This document shows, piece after piece, positions 4,030 to 23,407 of a DNA stretch of 27,561 bases. The stretch lies in the IMG/VR virus record IMGVR_UViG_3300031952_000111, positions 1 through 27,561 of that record. One strand, written 5' to 3'. The stretch's first letter is position 1. Every line of letters starts with the position of its first letter. Under the pieces are notes generated by a model. It had not been told where the DNA came from. It was given only the letters and a program-made list of their open reading frames with translations, and made no database searches. The stretch is from a virus. The position numbers and the translations under genes are program-made.

Positions 4030-4092
4030 ATGAAGGTAAGAGGGTGGCATCCGGCGGTTCCGGCAGAAGGAGGCGTACGATGGGAGGCTTGA
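4030..4092 (+). CDS. Possible 20-residue leader peptide
   Basis: The ATG at 4030 has an excellent ribosome site, AAAGGAG (4015-4021), 8 bases upstream. The frame codes for 20 residues beginning MKVRGWHPAVP and ends in TGA at 4090-4092, overlapping an in-frame ATG (4092) of the next gene as TGATG. The position and overlap suggest a translational coupling leader. It could be a chance ORF, but the ribosome site is among the best in the window. Confidence 0.4.
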   Translation: MKVRGWHPAVPAEGGVRWEA

Positions 4093-4535
4093 TGGCGGAC
4101 AGGACCATTGAGTACAGCCTGGGCGATCTGCTCTCGATCCCTATGGCGGCAGGGGCGCGGATCTTCGGCGGGGCTTTAGTGTGCAGCGACGCGGATGGCT
4201 ACGCCGTCCCGGCTGCCGACGCCGCGGGATTCACCTTCCAGGGAGTGGCCGCCGCGGCGGCCGATAACCGCAACGGCCAGGACGCTGCCGTCCGCGTGGT
4301 CGTGAGGCGCCGCGGCCGCTACCGCCTCGACTGCGCCTCGCGCCTGGACCAGTCGGCCATGAGTGCCCGGATGTATGTCGTGAATGATCACACCGTCGGC
4401 GCGGCATGGCAGGTGGTGAATGACGTCCTGGTCGGCGTCATAGACCGGGTCGAGAGCTCCGAGGAGTGCTGGCTCTCGATTGATGCAGCCGTGCTCCGCG
4501 GCAAGACCTGGCCCAAGCCGCAACCCGGGGCCTAA
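4080..4535 (+). CDS. Decoration/cement-like phage protein (DUF2190-type fold suspected)
   Basis: AAGGAGG (4067-4073) lies 6 bases before the ATG at 4080; a second in-frame ATG at 4092 overlaps the leader ORF stop and is an alternative start. The product (151 aa) reads LLSIPMAAGARIFGGALVCS, then DGYAVPAADAAGFTFQGVAA, then a basic VRVVVRRRGRYRL strand. That order (IPVAAG..Y.GA.V....GYAVPA.D.AG....GVA...V.RRG.Y) is what I know from small all-beta capsid cement/fibre proteins encoded in head modules. Here it is far from the head genes, in the accessory block, so it may decorate the virion in addition to the 15893 gene or may have been recruited for another use. Confidence 0.55.
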   Translation: MGGLMADRTIEYSLGDLLSIPMAAGARIFGGALVCSDADGYAVPAADAAGFTFQGVAAAAADNRNGQDAAVRVVVRRRGRYRLDCASRLDQSAMSARMYVVNDHTVGAAWQVVNDVLVGVIDRVESSEECWLSIDAAVLRGKTWPKPQPGA

Positions 4536-7672: not shown

Positions 7673-9223
7673 ATGACGGCGCGGATCATCCGGGGCGACT
7701 GCGTGAAGATGCTCCCGAAGTTGCCGCGGGAGAGCGTCCACTGCGTTATCACGAGTCCGCCGTACTGGTCGCTTCGGGCCTATGATGGAATTGAGCCGAC
7801 CATCTGGCCACCCTCCGCCGAGGCCATGGGGGGTAAGGGTTGCAAGCATCAATGGGGGCGTCAGTTGTCATGCCATCATCCTGGACAGGTGGAGCAGACC
7901 AAGTGGAAGAACGCCGTCGCCGCCGGGGCGGGCCAGACCGCCCCAGCGGGTGCCTTCTGTCGGCGGTGCGGCGCTTGGCGGGGTGCGCTGGGTCTGGAGC
8001 CGAGCATCAAGCTCTACATCGCCCACCTTGTCGGCGTGTTCCGTGAAGTCCGGCGGGTTCTGAGGCCGGAGGGAACACTGTGGATCGTCATGGGCGACAC
8101 ATGCGCCAGCGGCAAGGGGACATGCCACAATCCCGGAGGAGGCGCCGGCAGTCTGGGGACGCATGGAGCAAAGAAGGCCGCAAGCGCTTACCCGCTGGAC
8201 CGCGGGAGCGTGGCTTCCCTGCGCGAGGATGGGCTGAAGCCGAAGGATGCGTGTTTCATCCCCTTCCGATTGGCGCTGGCGCTTCAGGAGGACAAGTGGT
8301 GGGTGCGGCGGCCGATCGTGTGGGTGAAGGGGCTGAGCTTCTGCGATGGATGGAGTGGGTCAGTCATGCCGGAGTCGGTTCGGGACCGGCCGACGGCGGC
8401 CTATGACGTGATCCTCCTCTGCAGCAAGCAGAAGAACCCGTACTACGACTGGTTCGCGGCACGGGAGGCCGGGAACAGCGGGGAGAGCGATCTGCGGAAG
8501 ATGCGCGAGCAGAGGGCCAGGATCGCGGGAAGGGCCAAGGAGTTGAGCGATTCGCACTGCAAGGCATCAGCGGCGACGAACATCGGGCGCAAGCGGGGAG
8601 TAGGCGAAGCCGGAATGCGGAACTGGCGCGACGCCTGGGGCATCGGCCCGAGCCGGTTTGACCTACAGATGTGCCGGGGGTGCGCAAACGTATACCGGGC
8701 TCGGCACTGGCGGAACCTCCCGAAGCTGGGCCGGCCACCGAAGGTCCGGCGAAGGTGTCCTTGCGGCTCGACCGCATGGGTCAGCCATCATGCGGCGTTC
8801 CCGCCAGCGCTCGCGGAGAAGTGCATCATCGCGGGGAGCAGTCCGAAGGTCTGCAGTAGGTGTAGCGCGGCGTGGAAGCGCGTTGTCTCGCGGGCCAGCA
8901 AAGGCCATCCAGTCCGCCAGAGCGGACAACAGAGCGAGGCGCGGCTCTCACATGGGTCAGGTTCAGCGGATCTGGCAGGGGCATCTTACCAGAGGTGGAA
9001 GGACCGGCATCCGCGGCGGCACTTGGGATGGAAACAGATGTGTGAATGCGAGGTGAGTGATGAGGGCGGCCGGGCGGTTGTACTTGACCCATTCGCAGGG
9101 ATGGCTTCGACACTGATCGCGGCGGCGAGATTGGGGCGGGACAGCATCGGGATAGAGTTGTCCGCCGAGTACTGCAAGCTGGCGCGGGCGCGGCTGAGGC
9201 TTGCGGGCGTGGAGGTCGCGTGA
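7673..9223 (+). CDS. Orphan DNA methyltransferase, beta-class (N4-cytosine or N6-adenine)
   Basis: Motif IV is TSPPYW (residues 27-32) near the N-terminus, and motif I, DPFAGMAST, comes at residue 472 near the C-terminus, followed by GIELSAEYCKLA. This order is the beta class; TSPPYW is most usual in N4-cytosine enzymes but also occurs in N6-adenine ones. A conserved VFREVRRVLRPEGTLWIVMGD block lies at about 122-142. Between the motifs are Cys-rich inserts that look like zinc ribbons (CRRCG; CRGCANVY...CPCG; CSRC) and probably form or extend the target-recognition part. No restriction enzyme gene is adjacent, so it most likely protects phage DNA from host restriction. The stop overlaps the terminase GTG by four bases. 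Confidence 0.8.
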   Translation: MTARIIRGDCVKMLPKLPRESVHCVITSPPYWSLRAYDGIEPTIWPPSAEAMGGKGCKHQWGRQLSCHHPGQVEQTKWKNAVAAGAGQTAPAGAFCRRCGAWRGALGLEPSIKLYIAHLVGVFREVRRVLRPEGTLWIVMGDTCASGKGTCHNPGGGAGSLGTHGAKKAASAYPLDRGSVASLREDGLKPKDACFIPFRLALALQEDKWWVRRPIVWVKGLSFCDGWSGSVMPESVRDRPTAAYDVILLCSKQKNPYYDWFAAREAGNSGESDLRKMREQRARIAGRAKELSDSHCKASAATNIGRKRGVGEAGMRNWRDAWGIGPSRFDLQMCRGCANVYRARHWRNLPKLGRPPKVRRRCPCGSTAWVSHHAAFPPALAEKCIIAGSSPKVCSRCSAAWKRVVSRASKGHPVRQSGQQSEARLSHGSGSADLAGASYQRWKDRHPRRHLGWKQMCECEVSDEGGRAVVLDPFAGMASTLIAAARLGRDSIGIELSAEYCKLARARLRLAGVEVA

Positions 9224-11770: not shown

Positions 11771-11801
11771 GGGCCGCCGCCCACGAGATTGAGGGCGCAC
11801 C

Positions 11802-11999
11802 GTGCCCGACGAGGTCCGCGAGAAGATCTTAGAGAACGCTCAGGCTCCGCGCCGGGTTGTGGCCGACGGCGTGGAGGTGGAAGAGCATCCGCTGGCCGAC
11901 CAGATCGCCGCCGACCGCCACTTGGACAGCAAGACGGCCGCCGACGCATCGGGGAGCCGGGGGCTCCGGTTCACGAAGCTCAAGCCGCCGGGGGCGTGA
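11802..11999 (+). CDS. gpW-like head-tail joining protein (65 aa)
   Basis: GTG start at 11802 behind GAGGG. The small size, the place directly before the portal, and the sequence plan (N-terminal helix, RRVVADGVEVEEHPLADQIAADRHL, then SGSRGLRFTKLKPPGA) agree with the short gpW-like/neck proteins found between terminase and portal in lambda-type modules. The protein is thought to join at the portal vertex after packaging to allow tail binding. The stop overlaps the portal ATG by one base (TGATG). Confidence 0.7.
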   Translation: MPDEVREKILENAQAPRRVVADGVEVEEHPLADQIAADRHLDSKTAADASGSRGLRFTKLKPPGA

Positions 12000-13480
12000 T
12001 GGCCCGAATCCTTGACCAGTATGGGCGGCCCTTCCGCGCCAGCGAGGTGCAGAGCAGGCCGCGCATCTTAGTGCGGCCTCGGGGGCTCCAGGGCCGGTAC
12101 GACGCGGCCCAGACGAACGACGACAACAGCCGGCACTGGGCGGCGGCCGACGCGCTGAGCGCCGATGAGGCCAACTCCTACTCCGTGCGGCTCACGCTGA
12201 GGAAGCGGAGCCGCTACGAGGTGTGGAACAACAGCTATGCGCGTGCGGTCGTCCTGATCTTCAGCCATGACGTGGTGGGGGACAACGGGCCCCAGCTCCA
12301 GATGCTTTTGGACGACGAGGGGTTGAACGAGCAGATCGAGGGGCGTTGGGCAGGCTGGGCGCGGCGAGCGCACCTGGCGCGCCGGCTGCGGACGATGCGG
12401 ACGGCGCGGACCGTAGACGGCGAGGGCCTGATGCTGCTGATCACGAACCCGGCGCTCCAGGATGAGGTGAAGCTGGACCTGCGGCTCTTGGAGTGCGACA
12501 GGCTCCACAGCCCGGGCCTGCTCTTGGACGACAACAACGTGGACGGCGTGATCCTGGACGATCAGTTGAACCCCGTCCGCTATCAGATATTGACGAACCA
12601 TCCCGGCGGCTCGGCCTACGCGCCGTTGGACACCCCGAAGGAATATGAGGCCCGCTGGGTGATCCATAGTTTCGAGGGAATCCGGCCGGAGCAGCATCGG
12701 GGCGTTCCGGAGATGCTCTCGTCCCTCGGCGTCTTCGGGCAGCTACGGCGCTTCATCCTGGCGACACTCCATGCGGCGGAGACGGCGGCCGACTTCTCGG
12801 CCGTCCTCGAAACGAATGCGCCCCCGAGCGGCGAGGCGGCGGACATCGAGGCATTCGACGCGGTCGAGATCGAGCAGAACCTGATGGTGACGATGCCCGA
12901 CGGCTGGGCAATGAAGCAGTTTCAGGCACAGCACCCGAACACGACGTTTCCCGACTTCAAGCGGGAGGAATTGACCGAGGCGGGCCGCGCGCTGCTGATG
13001 CCGGCCAACCTGAGCACGGGGGACTCGAGCCGCTACAACTTCGCGTCCGGCAAGTTGGACCAGGAGGCGTATTGGAAGGGCATCGGAGTAGTGCAGTCCG
13101 AGCTGGAAGACGAGGCCGCCGAGCCCATCTTCGACCTATGGCTCCAGGAGGCGCGGCTGGCCTACGGATTGGAGATCCCGGAGAAGCCCCGTCACGAGTG
13201 GCTCTGGCAGAAGCGGCAGAGCATTGACCCCCGCGAGGCGGGGGCGGAGCAGACGCGGCTCTCCTGTGGCGCACTGACGCTGCCGACGCTCTACGCCAGC
13301 CGGGGGCAGGACTGGCGCACTGAGCTTGAGAAGGGTGCGAAGTCCCTCGGCATCACGCTGCCGGAGCTGCAGGCTCTGATCCGGCAGAAGCTGTTTGCGA
13401 CGGCAGCCGGCCCGGAGCCTGCGCGGAGCGACGGGGACCCGGAGGCCATCGAGGAGGTCATCCATGCCTTACGCCAATGA
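11999..13480 (+). CDS. Portal protein (lambda family)
   Basis: The ATG at 11999 overlaps the preceding stop; the frame is open further upstream, but that part only shadows the gpW-like gene. The 493-residue product shows the lambda-portal pattern: N-terminal NSYSVRLTLRKRSRYEVWNN and Ser/Tyr-rich lead, a wing with DGEGLMLLITN, VIHSFEGIRPEQHRGVPEM (the conserved H.f...R..Q.RG.P), a helix LRRFILATLHAAETAADFSA, and PANLSTGDSSRYNFASGKLD near residue 340. It forms the dodecameric ring for DNA passage and the docking site of the terminase. The last 17 bases overlap the next gene. The one other TTA not followed by G (TTA-CGC near 13467) lies in this overlap, where the sequence serves two frames. Confidence 0.9.
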   Translation: MARILDQYGRPFRASEVQSRPRILVRPRGLQGRYDAAQTNDDNSRHWAAADALSADEANSYSVRLTLRKRSRYEVWNNSYARAVVLIFSHDVVGDNGPQLQMLLDDEGLNEQIEGRWAGWARRAHLARRLRTMRTARTVDGEGLMLLITNPALQDEVKLDLRLLECDRLHSPGLLLDDNNVDGVILDDQLNPVRYQILTNHPGGSAYAPLDTPKEYEARWVIHSFEGIRPEQHRGVPEMLSSLGVFGQLRRFILATLHAAETAADFSAVLETNAPPSGEAADIEAFDAVEIEQNLMVTMPDGWAMKQFQAQHPNTTFPDFKREELTEAGRALLMPANLSTGDSSRYNFASGKLDQEAYWKGIGVVQSELEDEAAEPIFDLWLQEARLAYGLEIPEKPRHEWLWQKRQSIDPREAGAEQTRLSCGALTLPTLYASRGQDWRTELEKGAKSLGITLPELQALIRQKLFATAAGPEPARSDGDPEAIEEVIHALRQ

Positions 13481-15773
13481 ACACGCCGCCCGGCTGCGAC
13501 GGCCGAGCGACTTCCTGCGAATAGTGGAACTCTGGGCGAGCAAGGGGATACGCGCGCTGGGCGGGCCCCTGAAGAGCAAGCCGCAGGGCGGGACGGTCGA
13601 GCAGGCGATCCGGTTCAAGGCGGACCAGTGGAGCGTGGCCGAGGCGAGGAAGTGGCTGAAGGAGCACGACTACAAGCCGATCATGTTCGAGCCCGCCACC
13701 GGCGACAAAGAGGAATCGAGCGCGGGCAAGCTGCTGGAGTGCCGGGCCATCGTGGACATCGAGGCGGTGCCGGCGGAGGAGGGCAAGGCCGAGAAGCTGC
13801 CGACCTTCAGCATCATCGCCTACACGGGCGGGGTGATCGAGCCGAGCGGGTGGTATGGGCCGGTCGTGATTGACCTGGGAGGACTGGAGGCGCCGACGCC
13901 GTTCGCGGCCCTGAAGGACCATGACCCGGGCAAGATCGTCGGGCACACGGAGGAGGTCGAGAAGTCGGCCCGGCGGCTGAAGCTCAGCGGGACGATTTCG
14001 GGCAGCGGCGAGGCAGCGCGCGAGGTGGTGGAGAACGCCAAGCGCGGCTTCCCGTGGCAGGCATCGGTCGGCCTGCGGGTGAAGAGCGCGGAGTACGTGC
14101 AGGGGGGAGCCACCGCACAGGCGAACGGGCAGAGCTTCAAGGGCCCGGTGAGCATCGTCAGGAAGTCCATCTTGAGGGAGGTCAGTTTCTGTGCTGTCGG
14201 CGCGGATGACGGCGCCACGGCGAGCATTGCGGCGAGAGCCGCCCAGATAGGAGACGACGCCATGAAGTTCGAGGAGTGGCTGAAGGCACGCGGATGGAAG
14301 ATCGAGGACCTGAGCGAGGAGCAGCAGAAGACGCTCAGGGCGAGCTACGAGGCGGAGATCAAGGCGCAGGCTGCGGCCGACGCGCCTCCGGCCGAAGGGG
14401 CCGATGATCTGGAGGGCGACGAGGACTTAGACGTGAAGGCGCAGGCGAAGGCGTTCGTGGCCGAGGTGGTGGCGAGTATCCGGAAGGAAACCGCGCAGGA
14501 GAAGGCGCGGATCGCCGCCATCGCCAAGCTCTGCGAAGGGCACCCGGACATCGAGGCGAAGGCCATCGGCGAGGGCTGGAGCGAGACGAAGGCGGAGCTG
14601 GAAATGCTGCGCGCGTCGCGTCCGGCGGCCCCGGCGATCCACGCGGCCAGCGATGAGACCGGCCCGAAGGTGATCGAGGCGGCGCTCTGCCTCGGGAACG
14701 GGCTGAGCCAGGAATCCATCGTGAAAGCGTACGGCGAGCCCATCCTTGCGACGGCGCGCAAGCGGTTCGGCGGCCCCATCGGCGCCGGGCAGTTCGTGCT
14801 GGAGTGCGCCTGGGCGAACGGGTTCACCGAACGGCACATCCACACCGGGAACCTGAAGGCGGCCCTGCGAGCGGCGTTCAGCACGCAGGCGGCCTCGGGC
14901 ATCCTGTCGAATGTGGCGAACAAGGTGCTGTTAGACGCCTTCATGCACGTCGAGCAGGCATGGCGGCAGATCGCCCGCATCCGGCCGGTCAACGACTTCA
15001 AGGCGGTGACGCACTACCGCCTGACCGGGGACATGGAGTACGAGGAGGTCGGGCCGGGCGGGGAGCTGAAGCACGGTGCCACGAACGAGGAATCGTTCGA
15101 GGTGCAGGCCAAGACCTACGGCAAGATGTTCGCCGTGACGCGCCAGGACATCATCAACGACGACCTGGGCGCATTCGACAGCCTGCGGCAGATGCTGGGG
15201 CGGGGCGCCGGCCTGAAGCTCAACAACGTCTTCTGGACGGCGTTCCTGAACAACGGCAGCTTCTTCACGGGCGGCCGTGGGAACTACATCAGCGGCGCCG
15301 CAACGGTCCTCGACAGCGCGGGGTTGACGACCGGAGTCACCGCGTTCCGCAAGATGAAGGACTCGGACGGCAAGCTGCTCGGCCTCACGCCGCGCAAGCT
15401 GCTGGTGCCGCCGGACATCGAGGCGGACGCCGATGAGCTGTACGTCGCCCGGAACATCAACACCGGCGGCGCGTCCACGAAGGCGAAGGTGCCGGACAGC
15501 AACATCCACGCCGGGAAGTACCAGCCGGTCGTGTCGGCCTACCTGAGCGACACGGGCTACAGCGGGTACTCGCTGACGGCCTGGTATCTCTTGGCCGATC
15601 CGGCCGATCTCGCCGTGATCGAGGTCGTGTTCCTGAACGGACAGGAGACCCCGACGGTCGAGAGCGCGGACGTGGACTTCGACACGCTGGGCATCCAGGT
15701 GAGGGGATACCACGACTTCGGCGTGTCGCTGGCGGATTACTACGCCGGCATGAAGAGCAAGGGCGCCGCCTAA
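13464..15773 (+). CDS. Prohead protease/major capsid protein fusion
   Basis: GAGGAGG sets the ATG at 13464, inside the end of the portal gene. The 769-residue product has three parts. Residues about 60-260 are a prohead serine protease, with the likely catalytic His153 in ALKDHD and Ser201 in WQASVG. Residues about 265-400 are acidic, Ala/Glu-rich and helical, like a scaffold (delta) domain. Residues about 420-769 are an HK97-fold major capsid protein of the Mu gpT-like type (MEYEEVGPGGELKHGATNEE, KMFAVTRQDIINDDLGAF, GLTPRKLLVPPDIEADADEL). Such fusions are a known annotation class in phages. The protein would assemble the prohead, then cleave itself to free the capsid part. The catalytic third member was not assigned. 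Confidence 0.88.
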   Translation: MPYANEHAARLRRPSDFLRIVELWASKGIRALGGPLKSKPQGGTVEQAIRFKADQWSVAEARKWLKEHDYKPIMFEPATGDKEESSAGKLLECRAIVDIEAVPAEEGKAEKLPTFSIIAYTGGVIEPSGWYGPVVIDLGGLEAPTPFAALKDHDPGKIVGHTEEVEKSARRLKLSGTISGSGEAAREVVENAKRGFPWQASVGLRVKSAEYVQGGATAQANGQSFKGPVSIVRKSILREVSFCAVGADDGATASIAARAAQIGDDAMKFEEWLKARGWKIEDLSEEQQKTLRASYEAEIKAQAAADAPPAEGADDLEGDEDLDVKAQAKAFVAEVVASIRKETAQEKARIAAIAKLCEGHPDIEAKAIGEGWSETKAELEMLRASRPAAPAIHAASDETGPKVIEAALCLGNGLSQESIVKAYGEPILATARKRFGGPIGAGQFVLECAWANGFTERHIHTGNLKAALRAAFSTQAASGILSNVANKVLLDAFMHVEQAWRQIARIRPVNDFKAVTHYRLTGDMEYEEVGPGGELKHGATNEESFEVQAKTYGKMFAVTRQDIINDDLGAFDSLRQMLGRGAGLKLNNVFWTAFLNNGSFFTGGRGNYISGAATVLDSAGLTTGVTAFRKMKDSDGKLLGLTPRKLLVPPDIEADADELYVARNINTGGASTKAKVPDSNIHAGKYQPVVSAYLSDTGYSGYSLTAWYLLADPADLAVIEVVFLNGQETPTVESADVDFDTLGIQVRGYHDFGVSLADYYAGMKSKGAA

Positions 15774-15800
15774 GCACTGGCGGGCCCTGACGGGGAATTG

Positions 15801-15840
15801 CGGGGCGCGGTGTCCGGGCACTGACCCGGACGCCGCCCCG
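15801..15840 (+). terminator. Strong stem-loop after the capsid gene
   Basis: CGGGGCG-CGG-GTCCGGG pairs with CCCGGAC-CCG-CGCCCCG (15801-15840) with two small bulges and a six-base loop. There is no T tract, so it may be an RNA-stability element or a partial terminator in the 119-base gap before the decoration gene. Confidence 0.4.
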
Positions 15841-15892
15841 AGCACATAGGAGCAGCAAAAGGACTTAACCCTCTCGATCGGAGGTTCGGAAG

Positions 15893-16291
15893 ATGGAACT
15901 CTTCGCACTGGTTGTGCTCTTGGGAGCGATAGTCGGGATGTGTGCGCTGGCGACGCCGCTGGCGACGTTCGTACAGACCGGGGTCTCGATTGACTACACG
16001 CCGGACGCCGACGTGGCGGCCGGCGACGTGATCGTCATCGGGAGCATCGTGGCCGTGGCCCCGGTGGCCATCTCGGCGGGGGTCAAGGGCGCGGTTACGA
16101 TTAAGGGTGTCGTGAGATTCCCGAAGGACACCGGATCCGGTAGCGCCTTAGACGCCGGCACGAAGGTCTACTGGGACCCGGACAGCGAGATCGTCACGTC
16201 CACGGCCGACGGCCTGAAGTGTGCCGGCTACACGGTCGGCGCGGCTGCCGCAGACGACGAGACGGTGGACGTGGACCTCTGCAGGGCCTGA
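15893..16291 (+). CDS. DUF2190-type capsid decoration protein with hydrophobic N-terminus
   Basis: GGAGG 8 bases before supports the ATG at 15893. From residue about 25 on the 132-residue protein is a small all-beta protein of the DUF2190 kind: FVQTGVSIDYTPDADVAAGD, then VVRFPKDTGSGSALDAGTKV, YWDPDSEIVTSTADG, and a final GYTVGAAAADDETVDVDL. Members are trimer-forming cement proteins on the capsid. The first 22 residues (MELFALVVLLGAIVGMCALA) are strongly hydrophobic, which is unusual; an inner ATG at residue 16 would remove most of it but has no ribosome site. It lies straight after the capsid gene and before the modification cassette. Confidence 0.75.
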   Translation: MELFALVVLLGAIVGMCALATPLATFVQTGVSIDYTPDADVAAGDVIVIGSIVAVAPVAISAGVKGAVTIKGVVRFPKDTGSGSALDAGTKVYWDPDSEIVTSTADGLKCAGYTVGAAAADDETVDVDLCRA

Positions 16292-16333
16292 GCGTAAGAC
16301 GGACAAGCCCCCGGCCCCGAATGACGGGCTTCC

Positions 16334-16362
16334 CGGCGCGCAGTCAGGCCGGTCGCGCGCCG
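16334..16362 (+). promoter_or_regulatory. Stem-loop between decoration gene and modification cassette
   Basis: CGGCGCGC (16334-16341) pairs perfectly with GCGCGCCG (16355-16362), followed by TTTG. It lies in the 112-base gap before the TylF-like gene; too few T for a clear terminator, but it could lower expression of the cassette. Confidence 0.35.
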
Positions 16363-16403
16363 TTTGCCCCCGCGCGACTGCGGAGGCCGCTGAGGCGAGC
16401 GCC

Positions 16404-16970
16404 ATGCGCGCGAGCTACGGGCAGATCGAGGAGCTGGTCCGGGCCTGCGGCGAGGTCCAAGGGGACTTCGCCGAGTTCGGGGTCTGGCAGGGCGAGACCT
16501 TCCTGCCCCTGGCCGAGGCGGCGCAGGCCTTTGGGAAGCGGGCACATGCGGTGGACAGCTTCCAGGGCTGCGGCGAGCCGGGGCCGAACGACTACGAGCC
16601 GGACGGGAGCTGCGAGTATCCCGCGGGCGCGCTCAGCACGGGCGGGTCGCAGGCGTTCCGCGACTTGGTGCGGCCCTTAGACGGCACGGTCGAGGTCTGG
16701 GAAGGCTGGATCCCGGCGATCCTCGCGGAGATGGTCGGTCAGGTCCGCGCGCTGGCCTTCGTCCACGTGGACTTAGACCAGTATGGCCCGACCCTCTGGA
16801 CGCTCCGCTGGTGCTGGCCGCGCATGAGCCCCGGCGGGATCCTCTGCTGCCACGACTGGTTCCCGGAGTACCGCCGGCTGGCGGCTGGAGCGATCCGGGA
16901 CTGGATCCTGGCCGACGGCATGGTGCCGGCCGGGACCTCGGCGAACAGGCACATATGGTTCCGGAAGTGA
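16404..16970 (+). CDS. TylF/macrocin-type O-methyltransferase
   Basis: The ATG at 16404 (188 aa) is chosen because the conserved domain starts there; the frame is open to 16221, which overlaps the previous gene. Typical TylF features: DFAEFGVWQGETFLPLAEAA (residues 21-40, SAM site), HAVDSFQGCGEPGPND (about 49-64), the metal-binding VDLDQYGPTLW (Asp123, Asp125) and SPGGILCCHDWF (about 143-154). Macrocin O-methyltransferases methylate sugar hydroxyls using SAM and Mg2+; homologues act in the synthesis of methylated surface glycans. First gene of the cassette; in this context a sugar on the virion or on the host surface is the likely substrate. The domain is nearly complete but shorter than TylF (about 250 aa). 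Confidence 0.75.
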   Translation: MRASYGQIEELVRACGEVQGDFAEFGVWQGETFLPLAEAAQAFGKRAHAVDSFQGCGEPGPNDYEPDGSCEYPAGALSTGGSQAFRDLVRPLDGTVEVWEGWIPAILAEMVGQVRALAFVHVDLDQYGPTLWTLRWCWPRMSPGGILCCHDWFPEYRRLAAGAIRDWILADGMVPAGTSANRHIWFRK

Positions 16971-16992
16971 GGTCGGGAGGGAGCGAACAGGA

Positions 16993-17490
16993 ATGCGGCC
17001 CGATTGGATGATGACCGAGTTCGCTACGCACCTGCCGCTGTTGGGTGCGTGCGTGGCGCACACGACCGGCCCGGTCCTCGAGCTGGGCTGCGGGGCCTAC
17101 TCGACGCCGCTGCTCCACGCGCTGTGTCTGGGGCGCCCCCTGGTCAGTCTGGAGAGCGACCCGCAATGGTACGCGCGGTTCAGCCATCTGGGCCGGGGCC
17201 ACCATGCGGTGAAGTTGATCAGCGGCCCGTGGGAGGAGGTCGCGCTGGGAGAGTCTTACGACGTGGCGCTCATCGATCACTCGCCGCCTCTGCGCCGGGT
17301 GCGCGAGATCGAGCGCCTGCGCGGGCACGTGCGCCTCTTCGTGGTTCACGACACTGAGCATCGGGCGTACTGCTATGAGCCTCTGCTGAACACGTTCGCG
17401 CACCGCGTCGAGTGGCAGGGCTACGCACCCTGGACCTCCGTGGTGAGCGACGAGGACGACCTGAGCTGGCTGAAGGATGCTCTCTGGTGA
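16993..17490 (+). CDS. SAM-dependent methyltransferase-like protein, paralogue A
   Basis: GGGAGGG lies before the ATG at 16993, 22 bases after the previous gene. The 165-residue protein has motif I VLELGCGAYST (residues 28-38), an acidic loop at the end of strand 2 (SLESDPQWY) that would hold the SAM ribose, and a motif IV-like strand VALIDHSPPLRR followed by LRLFVVHDTE-type strand 5 (VRLFVVHDTE, about 115-124). The C-terminus ends in a YAPWTSVVSDEDDL segment shared with the next gene. I recall similar short proteins near phage and bacterial glycosylation genes. The substrate is unknown. Confidence 0.65.
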   Translation: MRPDWMMTEFATHLPLLGACVAHTTGPVLELGCGAYSTPLLHALCLGRPLVSLESDPQWYARFSHLGRGHHAVKLISGPWEEVALGESYDVALIDHSPPLRRVREIERLRGHVRLFVVHDTEHRAYCYEPLLNTFAHRVEWQGYAPWTSVVSDEDDLSWLKDALW

Positions 17491-17497
17491 GCTGAAG

Positions 17498-17998
17498 ATG
17501 GACAACGGCGACATAGACCTTTGGAGCACGCACCTGCCGGTCCTGGTTGAGGCCGTGCTGCACACGAGCGGGGCGGTACTCGAGCTGGGCTCGGGGCATT
17601 ACAGCACGCGGGTCCTGCGCGCGCTGTCCGGGGCATACCCGGACCGCCGCTTCGTGACGTGCGACACGAACCCGCGCTGGGTCGCGAGGTTCGCGGACCT
17701 GCGCTCGGCCAACCATGAGATCGTCTGTGCGGCGGACATCTCTGTGTATGTCCGCGAGGCCTGGGAACTGGTGTTCGTGGACGAGGCGCCGGCGCAGCAT
17801 CGGATCATCCAGATGCGGCTGCTGCGTCCCGTGACGCGGCTGTTCGTCGTCAACAACACGGAGCCGGGGAGGCCGGTCTACCGATATGAGGAGCTGCTGC
17901 CGAGCTTCCCGCACCGATGGGACTACAAGCGCTATCCCGTGTGGACGAGCTACGTCAGCGATCACCCGCTGCCCGAGTGGGTCGGAAGGAGCGTCTGA
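17498..17998 (+). CDS. SAM-dependent methyltransferase-like protein, paralogue B
   Basis: I take the ATG at 17498, 7 bases after the previous stop; an in-frame ATG at 17477 within the previous gene is the alternative. The product (166 aa) is a diverged tandem copy of paralogue A: HLPVLVEAVLHTSGAVLELGSG (to residue 33), CDTNPRWVARFADLRSANHE, LVFVDEAPAQHR, TRLFVVNNTE and YPVWTSYVSD correspond block by block. The motif I Cys of paralogue A is Ser here, and the D-H-S-P-P of A is D-E-A-P-A, so the active sites differ and the two may act on different positions or form a heterodimer. The stop overlaps the next start by one base. Confidence 0.65.
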   Translation: MDNGDIDLWSTHLPVLVEAVLHTSGAVLELGSGHYSTRVLRALSGAYPDRRFVTCDTNPRWVARFADLRSANHEIVCAADISVYVREAWELVFVDEAPAQHRIIQMRLLRPVTRLFVVNNTEPGRPVYRYEELLPSFPHRWDYKRYPVWTSYVSDHPLPEWVGRSV

Positions 17999-19659
17999 TG
18001 ATGCCGCGCATCATCCACTTCATCTGGTTCGGGCCGGCGATGCCCGCCTGGGTCCAAAGGAACATTGAGGAGTTCCGCCGGCTGAACCCGGCCTACGAGG
18101 TCCGCATCCACGATGAGAGCGTGCTGCTCCCGCAGTATGCGGCCACCTACGCGCGGATCGAGGACGTTTGCACGAAGAGCGACGTGCTCGCGGTGAGCGC
18201 GCTGCAGCGCTTCGGCGGCTGGTACTTCGACACGGATTACTGGCCGTTCCGGGGCGTGGAGGGGATTGTCGAGGCCTACGGCCTGGACGGGCGGACGATG
18301 TTCGTCACGGAGCAGCACGGGCAGCGGAACCCGGCGTTGGAGACGGCGAACGGGCTCCTGGCCGCTACGACGGACTGGTCCGGCTGGCCCTGGATCGAGT
18401 CCGAGATCGTGAACAAGCCCTCCGGGCCCATCGGGCGGTGCGACTTCGGGCCGGTGCTGATGACGCGGCTCTATAAGGAGCACCCGGAGGCGTTCGTGCG
18501 CGGGAGCTGGCCCTTCTTCTACCCCGCCGAGATCGGCCGGGCGGAGCGGGTCTACCCGGTCTTAGTGAGCGGGCGGTCCCGCGTGGCCACGCGGCTCGCG
18601 CCGACCCAGGGGCAGTACCCGTTCACGATGCACCTGTGGGCGGGCGGCGAGACGGTACTCACGCCCGGCCGTGACGCCAACCTGCTCGCGCGCATCGAGC
18701 CGCGGGCCAACGCGGATGCGTTGGCTGACGGCCCCTGGCGCGGCCGGCGGGCGGTGATCCTGGCATTGGAGCTGCAATGGAAGGGGCACGTGGGGATCAG
18801 CACGGCCTGGGTCTTCCCGGCACTGGCCGAGGGCCTGGCCCGGATCGGGTTCGAGGTCGAGGTGCGGCGGGCGGAGGCGGAGCGGCAGATCGAGATCGCG
18901 GATCTGGGCGTGGTGTGGAATGGACGGCGGGCGCACTTCGGCGTGCGGATGGCCGAGGCGCGCGAGTTGGGCCTGCCCGTGCTCCAGATCGAGCATGGGT
19001 TCTTCGAGCGTTCGCAGTACGTCCAGGCCGATCACGCGGGCATCCTGCACTGGGCGTCCTGGACGAATGGAGAACTGAGGCGGCCGGCGCCGGCGGACGG
19101 TGCGGAACGCCTGGCGCGCGTCTGGCCGAGAGCGCTCAGGCCGTTCGAGCCGCGCAAGGGCTACGTGCTCCTGATCGGGCAGTTGGCCGGCGACACGCAG
19201 ATGCAGGACTCCGAGCTGAAGGCGCTGCCCGGGCTCGAGACGGCCGTGGCGCGGGCGCTGCCGAAGGGCGTCCAGGCCGTAGTCCGGCCGCACCCGTTGG
19301 ATGCGAAGCGCGACCGGCCGAGGCATCGGACGCTGCCGCGCTGCCCGGCGCCGACGCTCGCGGAGGCCATCGAGGGGGCGCGGTTCGCCGTGATGATCAA
19401 CAGCAATGCGGGCAATGAGTGCCTGGCCCTGGGCTGCCCGGTCCTGGCGCTCGGGCCGAGCCTCTACGGCCGGGCGGGCGTGGCGAAGGAGACACCCCTG
19501 GCAGGTCTGAAGGCCGCCCTGGGCGAGATGCTGGAAGGCTGGCGGCCGGACGCCGGCGCCGTGCGGAACTATCTGGAGTGGCTCGCCTGCCGGCAGTGGA
19601 ACGCCGAGGAACTGCGTGAAGGGCGGGCGTTGGATGGGCTTGTGAAGAGGGCGCTGTGA
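17998..19659 (+). CDS. Fusion of a GT32-type glycosyltransferase and a KpsC/KpsS-like capsule transferase
   Basis: GGAAGGAG precedes the ATG at 17998 (second ATG at 18001). The N-terminal part (about 1-235) starts PRIIHFIWFGPAMPAWVQRN, has the donor-site DXD motif YFDTDYW (Asp78, Asp80) preceded by SDVLAVSALQRFGGW, and fits the DXD sugar-transferase family (GT32/Gly_transf_sug). The C-terminal part (about 250-553) has VVWNGRRAHFG, IEHGFFERSQY, VRPHPLDAKRD (His432) and ARFAVMINSNAGNECLALGC with PVLALG, the pattern of capsule-synthesis proteins KpsC/KpsS (beta-Kdo transferases). The fusion would make two linkages of one glycan in the cytoplasm. Its stop overlaps the connector gene start, so it is expressed with the head genes. 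Confidence 0.75.
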   Translation: MMPRIIHFIWFGPAMPAWVQRNIEEFRRLNPAYEVRIHDESVLLPQYAATYARIEDVCTKSDVLAVSALQRFGGWYFDTDYWPFRGVEGIVEAYGLDGRTMFVTEQHGQRNPALETANGLLAATTDWSGWPWIESEIVNKPSGPIGRCDFGPVLMTRLYKEHPEAFVRGSWPFFYPAEIGRAERVYPVLVSGRSRVATRLAPTQGQYPFTMHLWAGGETVLTPGRDANLLARIEPRANADALADGPWRGRRAVILALELQWKGHVGISTAWVFPALAEGLARIGFEVEVRRAEAERQIEIADLGVVWNGRRAHFGVRMAEARELGLPVLQIEHGFFERSQYVQADHAGILHWASWTNGELRRPAPADGAERLARVWPRALRPFEPRKGYVLLIGQLAGDTQMQDSELKALPGLETAVARALPKGVQAVVRPHPLDAKRDRPRHRTLPRCPAPTLAEAIEGARFAVMINSNAGNECLALGCPVLALGPSLYGRAGVAKETPLAGLKAALGEMLEGWRPDAGAVRNYLEWLACRQWNAEELREGRALDGLVKRAL

Positions 19660-20036
19660 TGAGCGACATGCTGGCGCGCGGAGTCGAGTGGATGCACAAG
19701 CGGCGGGCCGCCTACATGACGCGGACGGTGACGTACCGGCGCGGACGGGGTTCGACGGCGGCCGAGGCCGAGGTCCTTGCCACCATCGGCCAGACGGTCT
19801 TCAGGCTGACAACTGAGTCCGGCGCGGAGCTCCGGGTCGTCATGCGGGATTACCTCATCGAGGCGGCGCTACTGAGTGACTTCGGCGATCCGGAGTTGGG
19901 CGATCAGGTGGACGAGGCAGACGATGAGCTCACCCGGACCTACGAGGTGATGAGTCCGGGCGGTGGCGAGCCGGAATGGCGCTGGTCGGATCGCGCGGGC
20001 GGGCAGCTCCGCATTCACACGAAGGAAGTGGGTTGA
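19659..20036 (+). CDS. Head-tail connector (head-closure type) protein
   Basis: The ATG at 19659 overlaps the preceding stop (TGATGA). The 125-residue product has the plan of a small all-beta neck protein that I know from phages with this module: RTVTYRRG, then AEVLATIGQTVFRLTTESG, VMRDYLIEAALL, a loop with GDQVDEAD, TYEVMSPGG, and a final WRWSDRAGGQLRIHTKEVG. It should form part of the neck below the portal and stop DNA leakage. The position between the cassette and the tail genes fits. It is translationally coupled to both neighbours. Confidence 0.6.
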   Translation: MSDMLARGVEWMHKRRAAYMTRTVTYRRGRGSTAAEAEVLATIGQTVFRLTTESGAELRVVMRDYLIEAALLSDFGDPELGDQVDEADDELTRTYEVMSPGGGEPEWRWSDRAGGQLRIHTKEVG

Positions 20037-20323
20037 TGGCTCCCGGTCCTGAACAGATGGTCAAGGTGCCTCTGCCTGAGTGGGTTGAGCTGATCGCCAA
20101 CCATGCGGCCACGAAGGCCGCCCAGGCAGTGATCGAGAAACACCTGGAGCTCTGCGAGGCGCGGAAGGCGGTGCCCGAGCAGGCAGCCGAGATCAAGAAG
20201 CAGGCCGAGCAGATTGTGAGTCTCAAGATGCGCTTCATCGCCCTGATGTTCTACATGCTCGGCGCCGGCACGCTGGGCGGGCTGTTGGGCGGCTTCGCCG
20301 GACGGCTCCTGCGGTTCTTCTGA
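20036..20323 (+). CDS. Small C-terminally anchored membrane protein (95 aa)
   Basis: The ATG at 20036 overlaps the previous stop (TGATG). A soluble helical part (about 1-62, with IEKHLELCEARKAVPEQAAE and a coiled-coil-like KKQAEQIVSL) is followed by a membrane segment about residues 67-90 (FIALMFYMLGAGTLGGLLGG) and a basic end (RLLRFF). Its place among the neck/tail genes is unusual for a membrane protein. A holin-like or injection-related role is possible, but no lysis enzyme is near. Function unknown. Confidence 0.55.
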   Translation: MAPGPEQMVKVPLPEWVELIANHAATKAAQAVIEKHLELCEARKAVPEQAAEIKKQAEQIVSLKMRFIALMFYMLGAGTLGGLLGGFAGRLLRFF

Positions 20324-20332
20324 GGCAACGGG

Positions 20333-20773
20333 ATGTCGAGGATTGCGGACATAGCCGATGCGCTGGTCGAGGAGCTGAACGGAAGCTCATTCAGCCAGGC
20401 CTTTACGGCGGTGCGGAGCACGCTGCCGCGCATGAAGCGGGAAGAGCTTGGAGACACGCTTTGGGTGTCGGTGATCCCCGGCGACTGGACGACCGAGATG
20501 GAGACGCGCACCGAATGGAAGGAGAGCCATCCGGTGACGGTGTTCTTTCAGAAGGGACTTCAGCAGGGCATCGCGGAGGAGCAGGGCGAGGTGGACGCCT
20601 TAGTGGACCTGATCGAGGAGGTCGCGGGACACTGCAAGGGCCTGATACTGAGCGTCGGCGACGCCCGGGCCGTCTGCACGGCGATGAAGGTCCTTGCCTG
20701 CGAGCCGAACGATCTCACGGTGTACCGGGCTTTCACGGGCGCGTTGATGCTGACCTTCACGCTTTCGGGGTAG
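20333..20773 (+). CDS. Tail terminator-like protein
   Basis: The start at 20333 lies 9 bases after the previous stop. The 146-residue alpha/beta protein begins with RIADIADALVEELNGSSFSQ and AFTAVRSTL, has VSVIPGDWTTEMETRTEWKE, a strand PVTVFFQKG, a helix EVDALVDLIEEVAGH and a last strand ALMLTFTLSG. This matches the layout of small phage proteins at the place of the tail terminator (lambda gpU-like position) that close the tail tube at the head end. Family assignment is from layout and position. Confidence 0.6.
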   Translation: MSRIADIADALVEELNGSSFSQAFTAVRSTLPRMKREELGDTLWVSVIPGDWTTEMETRTEWKESHPVTVFFQKGLQQGIAEEQGEVDALVDLIEEVAGHCKGLILSVGDARAVCTAMKVLACEPNDLTVYRAFTGALMLTFTLSG

Positions 20774-20776
20774 GGA

Positions 20777-21364
20777 ATGGCCTTCAGCATGAGCAGGTTT
20801 ATCTTTCAGCCGCCGCCCATGGGCGGGATGCCGACGGCCGAGAACAGCATCCGGTTCGGCTGGGGCCTGAAGGAGTTCAAGGGGAGCTTCTTCGACCGGC
20901 CGGGCGTGAAGGCGGCCCTGGACCCGATGGAGCACCGCTTCCTGAACCGCTTCGGGTTCCTGGTCGCTGAACGCGCCAAGATGCTCATGGTGGACGCCCC
21001 GAAGGGGGTGTATTCGCCGCCCGGCTTCGCGCCCTTCGCCCATGTGGGACTCCTGCGCAAGATGCTCTACTGGGCCTTCGATACAGAGAGCTGGTCCCTC
21101 ATAGTCGGGCCGAGCCTCTTGAGGGGCGGCAACTCGCCGTATGTGAACTTCACCGTCCCGGAGGTGCTCGAGTACGGCGGGAATCCCGTGCGGCGCGGAC
21201 CAGGGGGCGGGACCGTCAGCGCCCGGGGGGTGATCCGCATCTATCACTACGAGGCGCGGCCGTACGTGCGGCCCGCCTACCAGAGCGTGCTGCGTCAACA
21301 GCAGGAGATCTGGGACTACAGCCTCCGGCCCCTCGCGTTAGGGGGTGCCGCGATGGCAGCCTAA
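20777..21364 (+). CDS. HK97 gp10/Mu gpG-like virion morphogenesis protein
   Basis: Starts 3 bases after the previous stop behind GGTAGGGA. The 195-residue product has the layout of HK97 gp10-like/phage virion morphogenesis proteins: a segment GSFFDRPGVKAALDPMEHRF (a conserved F.D...V...ld....r.l..fG), AERAKMLMVDAPKGVYSPPG, the conserved H-x-GLLRKMLYWAFD, SLIVGPSLL, and late LEYGG and RIYHYEARPYVRPAYQSVL (the ARPf..pAf signature). These proteins join head and tail or complete the tail. Gene order often differs in phages, with this gene before the terminator. Confidence 0.65.
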   Translation: MAFSMSRFIFQPPPMGGMPTAENSIRFGWGLKEFKGSFFDRPGVKAALDPMEHRFLNRFGFLVAERAKMLMVDAPKGVYSPPGFAPFAHVGLLRKMLYWAFDTESWSLIVGPSLLRGGNSPYVNFTVPEVLEYGGNPVRRGPGGGTVSARGVIRIYHYEARPYVRPAYQSVLRQQQEIWDYSLRPLALGGAAMAA

Positions 21365-21379
21365 AAGGAGGACTCACCG

Positions 21380-21838
21380 ATGGCCAACAAGCTCGGGATG
21401 GAGTGCAAGTTGTACCGCTGCGCGACGCTGCTGGACGACATCGCCAACACGCCCGCGCTGGCGACCTGGATCGAGGTGACGAACGTCAAGGACCTGAAGC
21501 GGAACCTCAGCACGCGCGAGGCCGACATGACCACGCGCGACAACGACGGCTGGGAGGCTACCCGCGCGACGCTGAAGAGCGGAACTGTGGACTTCGGGAT
21601 GCTCTATGACACCGACGATGCCGGGTTCACTGCGCTTCAGGAAGCGTGGGACGGCAGCGACGAGATCGCCCTGGCCGTCATGGACGGGGACATCGAGGTC
21701 GGGGGCGCCCAGGGACTCGTCGGCAACTTCAGCGTCACCAACTTCGGCATAAACGAGCCGCTCGCCGAAGGTGTGACCGTGGACGTCACGGTGAAGCCTT
21801 CGACCGAGACGGAATGGTACACGGTGAGCGCCAGCTAA
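21380..21838 (+). CDS. Major tail tube protein
   Basis: AAAAGGAGG (21363-21371) before the ATG at 21380 is the strongest ribosome site in the window, as expected for an abundant structural protein. The 152-residue sequence shows the tube family pattern: WIEVTNVKDLKRNLSTREAD with MTTRDNDGW, ATLKSGTVDFGMLYDTDDAG, IALAVMDGDIEVGGAQGLVG, NFSVTNFGINEPLAEGVTVD and VTVKPS. It polymerises as hexameric rings into a non-contractile tube; no sheath protein is found, which supports a siphovirus tail. Confidence 0.85.
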   Translation: MANKLGMECKLYRCATLLDDIANTPALATWIEVTNVKDLKRNLSTREADMTTRDNDGWEATRATLKSGTVDFGMLYDTDDAGFTALQEAWDGSDEIALAVMDGDIEVGGAQGLVGNFSVTNFGINEPLAEGVTVDVTVKPSTETEWYTVSAS

Positions 21839-21871
21839 GCGTAGCCCACCGCGAACCTTTGGGAGGGCCGT

Positions 21872-22372
21872 ATGCACAGCTTCAAGGATGCTGCCGGCCG
21901 CGATTGGGCGGTCTCCATCACGGTCCTGGCCGTCAAGAGAGTGGAAGGACTGCTCGCCGTCAAGCTCTATGAGATGGACGACGCGAGCCTGTTTCAGCGG
22001 ATCGGCCGTGACCCCGTGTTCCTCTGCGACCTGCTCTGCGTGCTCTGTGCCGAGCAGATACACGCACGGCAGATGACGCCGGAGCAGTTCTTGGAGGGGA
22101 TGCGGGGGGACGGGTTGGCCGAGGCCGCGACGGCCATGCTCGAGGAGCTCTTGGCTTTTTTCCCGCACCCCCTCCGGGGGCTGTTAGAGAAGGCGGCGCA
22201 GAAGCTCCGGCGGTTAGAGGCGATCAGGATGCAGCTCGCGGACCAGAGGCTGAGCGGGACGGCGGACGAGGAGGCCTTCCGGCGGGACCTCGAGGCGGAG
22301 GCGCGGAAGATGGAGGAGAGCGCCTCGACTTCTGGTGCGCCGTCTATGAACTTGCCGGCGTCGCCGGGGTAG
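21872..22372 (+). CDS. Tail assembly chaperone, upstream frame (G-like)
   Basis: GGGAGGG lies before the ATG at 21872. The 166-residue product has a beta N-terminus (FKDAAGRDWAVSITV, lVKLYEM) and helices (DPVFLCDLLCVLCAEQIH, LAEAATAMLEELLAFFPHPL) with a charged C-terminus; this fits the first of the two chaperones encoded between tail tube and tape measure. Such genes normally also give a longer product by a -1 frameshift into the next frame. The downstream frame here overlaps and lacks a plausible start for its first 27 codons, in agreement with that. The chaperone coats the tape measure protein during tail assembly. Confidence 0.7.
   Translation: MHSFKDAAGRDWAVSITVLAVKRVEGLLAVKLYEMDDASLFQRIGRDPVFLCDLLCVLCAEQIHARQMTPEQFLEGMRGDGLAEAATAMLEELLAFFPHPLRGLLEKAAQKLRRLEAIRMQLADQRLSGTADEEAFRRDLEAEARKMEESASTSGAPSMNLPASPG
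22156..22162 (+). other. Candidate -1 frameshift heptamer
   Basis: T TTT TTC read as gcT-TTT-TTC in the chaperone frame is a canonical slippery heptamer (residues 95-97). The -1 frame is open from here to 22641. However, slipping here would give a Pro/Gly/Ala/Arg-rich stretch of about 55 residues before the conserved-looking part, so a later site near 22300-22325 is an alternative. Confidence 0.35.
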
Positions 22373-22641
22373 ACCCCGACCCGTTCACGTACCGCCAGCT
22401 CTTGTGGATGGCGCGCGGACGGCAGAAGGCCGAATGGGAACGGGCGAGCTGGCTCATGTGCATCCTCTGGAATACGCACGCGACGAAGCCGCGTCGGCCG
22501 GATGAGTTCAACCCGTTTGCGGAGAAGCGGCGGCAGACAGGAGGCATCCCGATCACGGCCCAGAATATCGGGCTGCTCAAGGCCCTGGTGCCGAGGAGGC
22601 GCTTGAACCGGCGCCGGAAGCCGGAGGTGCCGCAGCCATGA
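22321..22641 (+). CDS. Tail assembly chaperone, -1 frame (T-like part)
   Basis: In the -1 frame relative to the upstream chaperone the DNA codes for RLDFWCAVYELAGVAGVDPD, then FTYRQLLWMARGRQKAEWER and RPDEFNPFAEKR. This looks like the second tail chaperone of such modules (a DFW..VY.LAG..GVDP...T.R.LLWMA.GR pattern). The first in-frame ATG (22402) falls in the middle of that pattern, and no start codon precedes the DFW block, so production by frameshifting from the upstream gene is likely. The frame is given from 22321; the true fusion point is not known. The stop overlaps the next small gene (ATGA). Confidence 0.6.
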   Translation, partial: RLDFWCAVYELAGVAGVDPDPFTYRQLLWMARGRQKAEWERASWLMCILWNTHATKPRRPDEFNPFAEKRRQTGGIPITAQNIGLLKALVPRRRLNRRRKPEVPQP

Positions 22642-22771: not shown

Positions 22772-23407
22772 ATGCTCTGGCTCTCCGATCTGCACTTAGA
22801 TGGCGGCGACGCGGCCGAGGACTTCAGCGCCGATGATGTCCTGGTCGAGTTCCTGCGGTTCTGGCACCGCCGGGAACGCATCGGCCTAGCGGGCGACACA
22901 GCCGACCTCGCGCAGGCGACGCTGGCCGAGATCGAGCGGGCCCATCCGCGCGCGGCGCAAGCCATCGAGGATTACGTGACCTGGCTGCTGATCGGAAACC
23001 ATGATCCGGTGCCGCAGCTCTTCGGGCACTGGACCGCCGACGCGGTCTTAGTGCGTGGCGTCTACGTCACGCACGGGAGCTGTTTTGACCCGCTGAACTT
23101 CGGCCGCTACCGCTTCATCGGCTGGGCCGGGGCGAAGGCCGGCGGGACGCTTGAGCGGGTCTTCGGCGCCGATGCGGACGACTGGGTCACGCGGCGACTC
23201 GGAGGGCTGCTGAGTTCGGGGCGATTCGGGGACGCCAGCGCCTATCGCCGCCGGGCGCTCAGTCTGATGAAGCGCATCCCCGGCGCGGAGTCTATCGTGA
23301 TCGGGCACACGCACAAGCGGGCAGTCGAGCCGCCCTACTACAACTGCGGCAACTGGACCGGCCAGGACGCCGGGCGGCGTTGCGACCACATCCTCATAGG
23401 AACCTAA
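22772..23407 (+). CDS. Calcineurin-like metallophosphoesterase (LpxH-like)
   Basis: AAGGAG precedes the ATG at 22772. All metal-site motifs of the family are present: DLH (Asp6, His8), GD (Asp42), GNHD (residues 75-78), TH (His101) and GHTH (His179, His181). The 211-residue size and the order, including YNCGNW after GHTH, resemble UDP-2,3-diacylglucosamine pyrophosphatase (LpxH) and related phage-borne phosphoesterases. It would use two metal ions (Mn or similar) to hydrolyse a phosphoester or pyrophosphate; the substrate cannot be read from sequence. It lies between the tail chaperones and the tape measure gene, 3 bases before the latter, so it is co-expressed with tail genes. Confidence 0.75.
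   Translation: MLWLSDLHLDGGDAAEDFSADDVLVEFLRFWHRRERIGLAGDTADLAQATLAEIERAHPRAAQAIEDYVTWLLIGNHDPVPQLFGHWTADAVLVRGVYVTHGSCFDPLNFGRYRFIGWAGAKAGGTLERVFGADADDWVTRRLGGLLSSGRFGDASAYRRRALSLMKRIPGAESIVIGHTHKRAVEPPYYNCGNWTGQDAGRRCDHILIGT

Follow-up and report, generated by a model that had tools for sequence, protein, structure and literature searches.

A glycosyltransferase and methyltransferase cassette in the head-tail operon of uncultured phages and its predicted role in glycosylation of the capsid decoration protein

The stretch of DNA analyzed here (the window) is an IMG/VR virus record of 27561 bases, IMGVR_UViG_3300031952_000111. Its + strand carries a head-tail operon in which genes for the terminase, the portal, a protease-capsid fusion, and a DUF2190 decoration protein are followed by four cassette genes, then by the gene for the head-tail joining protein (connector) and the tail genes. 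The cassette genes, tightly packed on the same strand, encode in order a TylF-type O-methyltransferase, two S-adenosylmethionine (SAM) methyltransferases (MT1 and MT2), and a two-domain glycosyltransferase, here called GT0. An earlier note, made from the letters of this DNA alone, had described these four genes between the decoration and connector genes and the last of them as overlapping the connector start; both points were borne out, with the joining-protein ATG at 19659 overlapping the GT0 stop by 1 nt (TGATG). The TylF start at 16404 is consistent with the starts in relatives, and the MT2 start at 17498 is backed by the relative L047. In this work, we describe the cassette (coordinates in Table 1) and argue that its enzymes probably glycosylate the decoration protein encoded next to it.

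The TylF-type methyltransferase scores 37.2 bits against the Pfam TylF profile (cut-off 23) and also passes the cut-off of Methyltransf_24. MT1 and MT2 are paralogues; MT1 has no match in Pfam or PHROGs, while MT2 has none above the cut-off in Pfam and none in PHROGs. GT0 likewise gave no match in PHROGs, so folds were used. The AlphaFold2 (AF2) model of MT1 (predicted local distance difference test, pLDDT, 91) resembles class I enzymes of the catechol O-methyltransferase (COMT) type. A frameshift in one methyltransferase copy distinguishes two contigs that are otherwise nearly identical (L047:9951-10523 versus L048:9951-10325); it is either a sequencing error or on/off variation.

In the N-terminal half of GT0, matches to sugar-binding DXD families of Pfam were obtained below the cut-off, and in the C-terminal half Capsule_synth was found above it. 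In the AF2 model, built with 24 relatives, the N domain has a GT-A fold (aligned with 6rth over 170 residues) with invariant D78 and D80, and the C domain has a modified GT-B fold, which matches 6mgd with Z 17.2 over 245 residues and WbbB with Z 15.4. Residues E332, Q395, D399, R430, H432, and P433 are invariant in 24 GT0 sequences, and D399 is identified as the counterpart of KpsC Asp160 because the residue aligned with it becomes Asn in the D160N entry 8fuw. The functions of the QXXXD, (K/R)XHP, and general-base residues have been described for KpsC-type enzymes (PMC10148158, PMC12887879), including a KpsC homologue that transfers pseudaminic acid (PMC12887879). The donor of the GT0 C domain could be the cytidine monophosphate (CMP) sugar of 3-deoxy-D-manno-octulosonic acid (Kdo), CMP-Kdo, or a related CMP sugar such as CMP-pseudaminate. 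The folds and catalytic residues of GT0 strengthen the earlier reading of the cassette enzymes as glycan chemistry.

A tblastn search of 50,697 records of cultured phages with GT0 and MT1 gave no match. When viral contigs were searched with single sequences, each query yielded one relative, and alignment-based searches were needed; profile-guided scans of IMG/VR gave 34 and then 67 loci, which contain 37 distinct full-length GT0s. In 30 of the 37, GT0 lies downstream of a decoration gene, and the joining gene follows directly on the 3' side in 27 of the 35 loci in which that side is visible, at a distance of 60 nt or less in 24. A check for co-occurrence beside DUF2190 or connector genes in metagenomes, proposed in the earlier note, was thus positive. 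The remaining loci with readable flanks are other virion modules: GT0 follows an unrelated major capsid gene in L017, L019, and L028-L029, lies in the virion operon of L040, and stands between tail genes in L015; in L030-L032 it is the C domain alone that follows the unrelated capsid gene. The position exactly between decoration and connector genes therefore holds as the rule of one phage lineage, but unrelated phages keep GT0 elsewhere in the virion operon. Cassette genes overlap virion genes, often by 4 nt. In a scan of 84,980 genomes of bacteria and archaea, L132 alone had the fused GT0, and matches in planctomycete genomes comprised one domain only. L132 is a 4.9-kb contig, binned as a Thermoplasmatota archaeon, that carries the decoration gene, GT0, and the joining gene; it is probably a mis-binned phage contig, or else points to an unexpected host, and its archaeal assignment was not used.

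The genes accompanying GT0 vary. TylF is present with 12 of the 37 GT0s and the MT10 family with 11, and the distances of the two correlate (Mantel r 0.84, p 0.02, six loci). Other cargo recognized by Pfam includes GT2, GT47/exostosin, pyruvyltransferase (some just below the cut-off), nitroreductase, epimerase, polysaccharide deacetylase, YdjC, and radical SAM families; the sulfotransferase label of some cargo is a weak match. No convincing membrane helix was detected by hydropathy among 107 cassette proteins, nor any flippase component. A second cassette type lies between the decoration gene and GT0 in L023, L024, L033, and L036, with GT2, GT2-like, nitroreductase, and pyruvyltransferase-like genes and, in most of them, methyltransferase and sulfotransferase-like genes. 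In L025 (1767-2828), the cassette includes a radical SAM/SPASM enzyme, an unusual neighbor for glycan genes.

To describe the site independently of GT0, virus contigs were sampled by their capsid protein (best 80 of 588 matches), and loci were judged with strand-fixed gene calls and six-frame hidden Markov model (HMM) searches. Among 54 judged virus loci, 41 were empty, five had cassette genes, and eight had other inserts; among 43 judged sites in Planctomycetota genomes, 41 were empty, two had other inserts, and none had the cassette. Related modules had been said to run straight on normally, and the decoration gene is indeed followed directly by the joining gene in these 41 virus loci and 41 host-genome copies. 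The site also accepts virion-like proteins, as in L130 (2764-4176), where a right-handed beta-helix protein lies between the decoration and joining genes. At the same site, L095 (4426-5834) has genes for a methyltransferase-like and a GT8-like protein (recognized by eye, no Pfam match), without GT0 and with a decoration protein lacking the Ser discussed below; this is possibly an independent cassette.

The capsid profile matched at E 1e-100 or better in 44 of 392 genomes of Planctomycetota, the phylum of L133 (Phycisphaerales), as opposed to 0 of 388 genomes of a control phylum, where the best match was 9e-74. Since capsid matches are concentrated in Planctomycetota genomes, the lineage very likely infects this phylum. 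Mapping the presence of the cassette onto the capsid tree takes 6-7 changes, at least four of them by well-supported branches, which points to repeated gain or loss at one site. Three cassette records (L007, L012, and L013) carry tyrosine integrases, so some of the cassette phages are temperate.

Eight virion proteins were scanned, column by column and for every residue, for differences between cassette and empty loci, with p-values that ignore relatedness. One residue of the decoration protein, Ser82 in window numbering, is present in 27 of 28 cassette loci and in one of 82 empty sites; after de-replication, the counts are 22/23 and 1/73 (p 2e-19). It is also found in all 16 cassette loci fetched later, outside the discovery set, and in none of 10 loci with other inserts. 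Glu99, 17 residues further on, tracks the cassette as well (18/23 versus 0/73, p 2.5e-15; 21/28 versus 0/82 in all loci). In the seven other virion proteins, including the major capsid, portal, joining, and tail tube proteins, the best column reached only 2.7e-7, and the joining protein, which is the other neighbor of the cassette, has no comparable tracking column. Ser82 needs five changes on the capsid tree, and in independent pairs the cassette and Ser go in the same direction in 2.8 of 3 and in the opposite direction in none. Ser occurs at a single empty-site locus, L178, a prophage in which a GT32-like gene follows the tail genes; by eye, pyruvyltransferase-like and GT25-like proteins are also encoded further down its virion operon. 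Two other candidate signals were not retained: long C-terminal extensions of the decoration protein, which are rarer with the cassette (1/28 versus 21/82, Fisher p 0.012), were dropped as uncorrected for relatedness, and a slightly raised Ser/Thr content of the decoration and capsid proteins was unsupported by independent pairs, so that only the Ser and Glu positions stand out.

A DUF2190 relative with a solved structure is gp48 of phiCD508, which decorates the capsid in the form of trimers, with 420 copies on each head (PMC11948020). At such a copy number, a single glycan on each copy would be enough to cover the shell.

We consider that the cassette is a system of virion glycosylation, whose enzymes would O-glycosylate and methylate the decoration protein in the cytosol while virions are being assembled, and we assign this reading a probability of roughly 0.6. 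Judging from the gene packing, the enzymes would be made late, from the head-tail operon and in the cytosol, together with the capsid proteins. The N domain of GT0, by its fold, may transfer a hexose from a nucleotide sugar; the C domain, by its conserved catalytic residues, may then use a CMP sugar to add an ulosonic acid resembling Kdo, by the two-step mechanism of KpsC and through Asp399. The sugars would be O-methylated by TylF and the two COMT-fold enzymes. The main acceptor would be the decoration protein encoded next door, with Ser82 in the K-x-T-G-S loop as the likeliest site, which would place the glycans on the capsid surface. The remaining cargo is swapped among phages, so that different phages would have different coats. 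The earlier note had named the capsid, the decoration protein, the tail fibre, and the host envelope as possible targets; among these, the diagnostic Ser favors the decoration protein, while the missing membrane components and the 0/43 host-genome copies speak against the host envelope.

Several observations weigh against this reading. The independent pairs are too few for significance. When the loop is set aside, the nearest relative of a cassette-linked decoration protein is another cassette-linked one in 35 of 37 cases, and a single clade of them is not rejected by the approximately unbiased (AU) test (p-AU 0.083). GT0 occurs in L015, L017, and L040, phages without the DUF2190 decoration protein, so other acceptors must exist; L020 carries GT0 with a different, long decoration protein that lacks the Ser, and the Ser is also absent from the prophage G371, where GT32-like genes adjoin a fibre-like gene. 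Moreover, the characterized enzymes KpsC, WbbB, and KrkA act on bacterial polysaccharides and not on proteins. Given the nearest-relative pattern and the p-AU value, convergent adaptation is not separable from co-inheritance of a matching decoration protein, and either would fit a working link between enzyme and acceptor. Outside the loop, the resemblance among cassette-linked decoration proteins is raised only slightly (51% versus 47%). The distances of GT0 correlate with those of the joining gene (r 0.28, p 0.001) but not with those of the decoration gene (r 0.07, p 0.23), and GT0 and the decoration gene therefore do not look like one travelling block. This, together with the lack of a tracking column in the joining protein, makes plain linkage less likely.

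In one alternative, the cassette would glycosylate another virion protein (the major capsid, tail tube, or fibre), and the Ser would be a linked marker co-inherited with it. The unrejected single clade, the GT0s of phages without DUF2190, and the glycans of mycobacteriophages, which are on capsid and tail tube (PMC12619734), are all consistent with such an arrangement. So is a prophage region in G371 (L294, G371:C1:318000-330000) in which a Gly/Ser-rich fibre-like gene is surrounded by two GT32-like genes, a methyltransferase-like gene, and a weak match to DUF115, perhaps for tail-fibre glycosylation. No column in the major capsid, portal, joining, tail tube, and three further virion proteins tracks the cassette comparably, however, and with the GT0 distances following the joining gene rather than the decoration gene we regard this explanation as unlikely, though worth keeping in mind. 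Slightly less likely still is an action on the host envelope, with glycans altered for superinfection exclusion or lysogenic conversion and the virion operon serving merely as a tolerated insertion site, as for a moron. KpsC and WbbB make bacterial capsule and O-antigen (PMC10148158, PMC12887879), some of the phages are temperate, and the site takes unrelated inserts too; yet the cassette occupies the site in 0/43 host-genome copies as opposed to 5/54 virus contigs, its 107 proteins include no membrane or flippase component, its genes overlap virion genes, and it is the decoration protein, not a host factor, that tracks it. The search of 13000-22500 found neither a sigma-70-like promoter nor a + strand terminator, a weak argument as other promoter types were outside that search.

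Modification of virion DNA is a very improbable alternative, in which the enzymes would glycosylate and methylate bases against restriction. Phage glycosyltransferases for DNA hypermodification are known (Pyle et al. 2024, as cited in PMC12619734), and the window itself encodes a DNA N6/N4 methylase. A hydroxymethylase of the thymidylate synthase family was nevertheless found in 0 of 17 cassette records, all of them fragments, and the location beside the decoration gene and the Ser would be left unexplained. We also know of no KpsC-like domain that acts on DNA. We give the least credence to a role of GT0 in taking control of the infected cell by modifying one of the host's proteins, with the other genes as passengers. 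The fold and profile of its N domain do match the protein-glucosylating GT44 domains, but GT-A folds are common to many sugar transferases, GT0 consists of only two glycosyltransferase domains in 553 residues, and neither the fused KpsC-like domain nor the changing sugar cargo nor the virion-operon position would be accounted for.

A more specific and more tentative picture, to which we give somewhat less than an even chance, is that of a capsid serotype system. Planctomycetota phages would carry a changing Kdo-containing, methylated (in some cases pyruvylated or sulfated) glycan on one Ser of every decoration copy, with genes swapped at a fixed virion-operon site around a constant, phage-specific bifunctional transferase. 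The exchange of glycan genes at the phage site would then resemble the swapping of the central region in bacterial capsule loci.

Table 1. Cassette, flanking virion genes, and residues of interest in the window.
Feature	Position	Strand	Basis
Portal protein (Phage_portal_2), flanking virion gene	11999..13480	+	Pfam 2e-45 on open reading frame (ORF) 11789-13480; start 11999 from gene caller
Prohead protease-major capsid protein fusion, flanking virion gene	13464..15773	+	Phage_capsid_4 1.6e-46; PHROG 4523 'major head and protease protein' 1.9e-72 on longer ORF; start from gene caller
Capsid decoration protein (DUF2190 / Phage_cement_2), proposed glycan acceptor	15893..16291	+	Pfam 2.4e-21; PHROG 122 head decoration 4.7e-19
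Ser82 codon of decoration protein (K-x-T-G-S loop), candidate O-glycosylation site	16136..16138	+	Tracks cassette
Glu99 codon of decoration protein, second cassette-tracking residue	16187..16189	+	Tracks cassette
TylF-type O-methyltransferase	16404..16970	+	Pfam Methyltransf_24 1.9e-13, TylF 2.6e-9
SAM methyltransferase 1 (MT1, MT10 family), COMT-like fold	16993..17490	+	AF2 model pLDDT 91; COMT Z 16.5 over 152 residues
SAM methyltransferase 2 (MT2), MT1 paralogue	17498..17998	+	ORF opens at 17477; 38% identity to MT1
GT0, two-domain glycosyltransferase	17998..19659	+	Capsule_synth 1.5e-6; AF2 model pLDDT 92
GT0 domain A (residues 1-224), GT-A fold of GT44/GT32 type, invariant D78/D80	17998..18669	+	VIA-align Z 16.8 to 6rth
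GT0 domain B (residues 250-544), KpsC/WbbB-like retaining beta-Kdo transferase fold	18745..19629	+	VIA-align Z 17.2 to 6mgd, 245 residues
GT0 E332, aligned with KpsC general base	18991..18993	+	Invariant in 24 sequences; role from PMC10148158
GT0 QXXXD motif (Q395-D399), D399 predicted nucleophile	19180..19194	+	Invariant; aligned with KpsC D160
GT0 (K/R)XHP motif (R430-P433), predicted CMP binding	19285..19296	+	R430, H432, P433 invariant; motif in PMC12887879
Head-tail joining protein (connector)	19659..20036	+	Phage_H_T_join_3 2.5e-29

Some further features of the window were observed. The decoration protein begins with a hydrophobic N-terminal extension (MELFALVVLLGAIVGM..., 15893-15940) behind a good ribosome site, which aligned relatives do not have; it is possible that this is a second anchor or a mis-start. 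A weakly decoration-like ORF (4044-4535; PF09956, E 0.0018, below the cut-off) lies far upstream of the terminase gene, an odd place for a virion protein. The DNA N6/N4 methylase gene (7673-9223, 4.8e-30) is directly upstream of the terminase gene, and a calcineurin-like phosphoesterase-like gene (22772-23407, E 0.0018, below the cut-off) stands in the tail module before a tape-measure-like gene.

Phage virions are seldom thought of as glycosylated. Here, a transferase family unseen in cultured phages recurs at one virion-operon site in many uncultured phages, and a Ser follows it, which reduces the question of where and why a phage would sugar-coat its capsid to one protein, one residue, and one enzyme. 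The cassette also offers a handle on the phages of Planctomycetota and a possible metagenome marker for glycosylated virions.

The C domain of GT0 shares the fold, the QXXXD and (K/R)XHP motifs, and the general-base residue of KpsC (GT107) and WbbB (GT99), but its sequence likeness to them is faint (E 0.0085), and it is fused to a GT44/GT32-like domain and encoded in phage virion operons. The N domain has the fold and DXD-type residues of GT44/GT32 domains, such as YGT, YeGT, the catalytic domains of large clostridial toxins, and SetA; GT0 comprises only two transferase domains and has no toxin delivery or processing parts, so the likeness is one of fold only and does not imply toxic activity. 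The TylF-type enzyme passes the Pfam cut-offs expected of TylF/macrocin-type O-methyltransferases, although its 188 residues correspond to part of the 264-position TylF profile, and methylation of a sugar hydroxyl is predicted from this match.

At the level of whole systems, the cassette resembles morons and the serotype-conversion genes of temperate phages, extras between virion genes that may include glycosyltransferases. As in these, extra genes are inserted between virion genes; unlike them, the cassette showed no membrane components and is unseen at the site in the judged host-genome copies. No sigma-70-like promoter or + strand terminator was found for it in 13000-22500. Chlorovirus PBCV-1 also encodes transferases that glycosylate its major capsid protein (title of entry 2p73), and GT0 matches the GT-A fold of that entry with Z 13.5. 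PBCV-1 is, in contrast, a giant virus of algae, and only the GT-A fold is common, at 9% identity. We know of no cassette site beside a decoration gene in PBCV-1.

The closest parallel is offered by mycobacteriophage Che8 and its relatives, whose glycosyltransferases, according to Freeman et al. 2023 (as cited in PMC11256854 and PMC12619734), are reportedly held to put glycans on virion proteins. As in the Che8 group, glycosyltransferases are phage-encoded here (GT0 in 37 distinct virus contigs); the tracking of the cassette by Ser82 hints indirectly at a glycan covalently bound to a virion protein. Virion glycosylation by phage genes in that group is recounted in PMC11256854 and PMC12619734, and in Maravista, a Che8-related F1 phage, the genes for the transferases are located close to the genome's 3' end (PMC11256854), whereas GT0 lies in the head operon. 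GT0 differs further in having no tblastn match in cultured phages, a difference that concerns the enzyme family and not the way of working, and in being a fused GT44-like/KpsC-like enzyme that is accompanied by variable cargo and for which the decoration protein offers a candidate acceptor. For the known cases of phage virion glycosylation, we are aware of no acceptor rule readable from sequence. The system described here, in which glycosylation is predicted, thus differs from known virion glycosylation in its enzymes, its place in the genome, its host group, and its exchangeable cargo.

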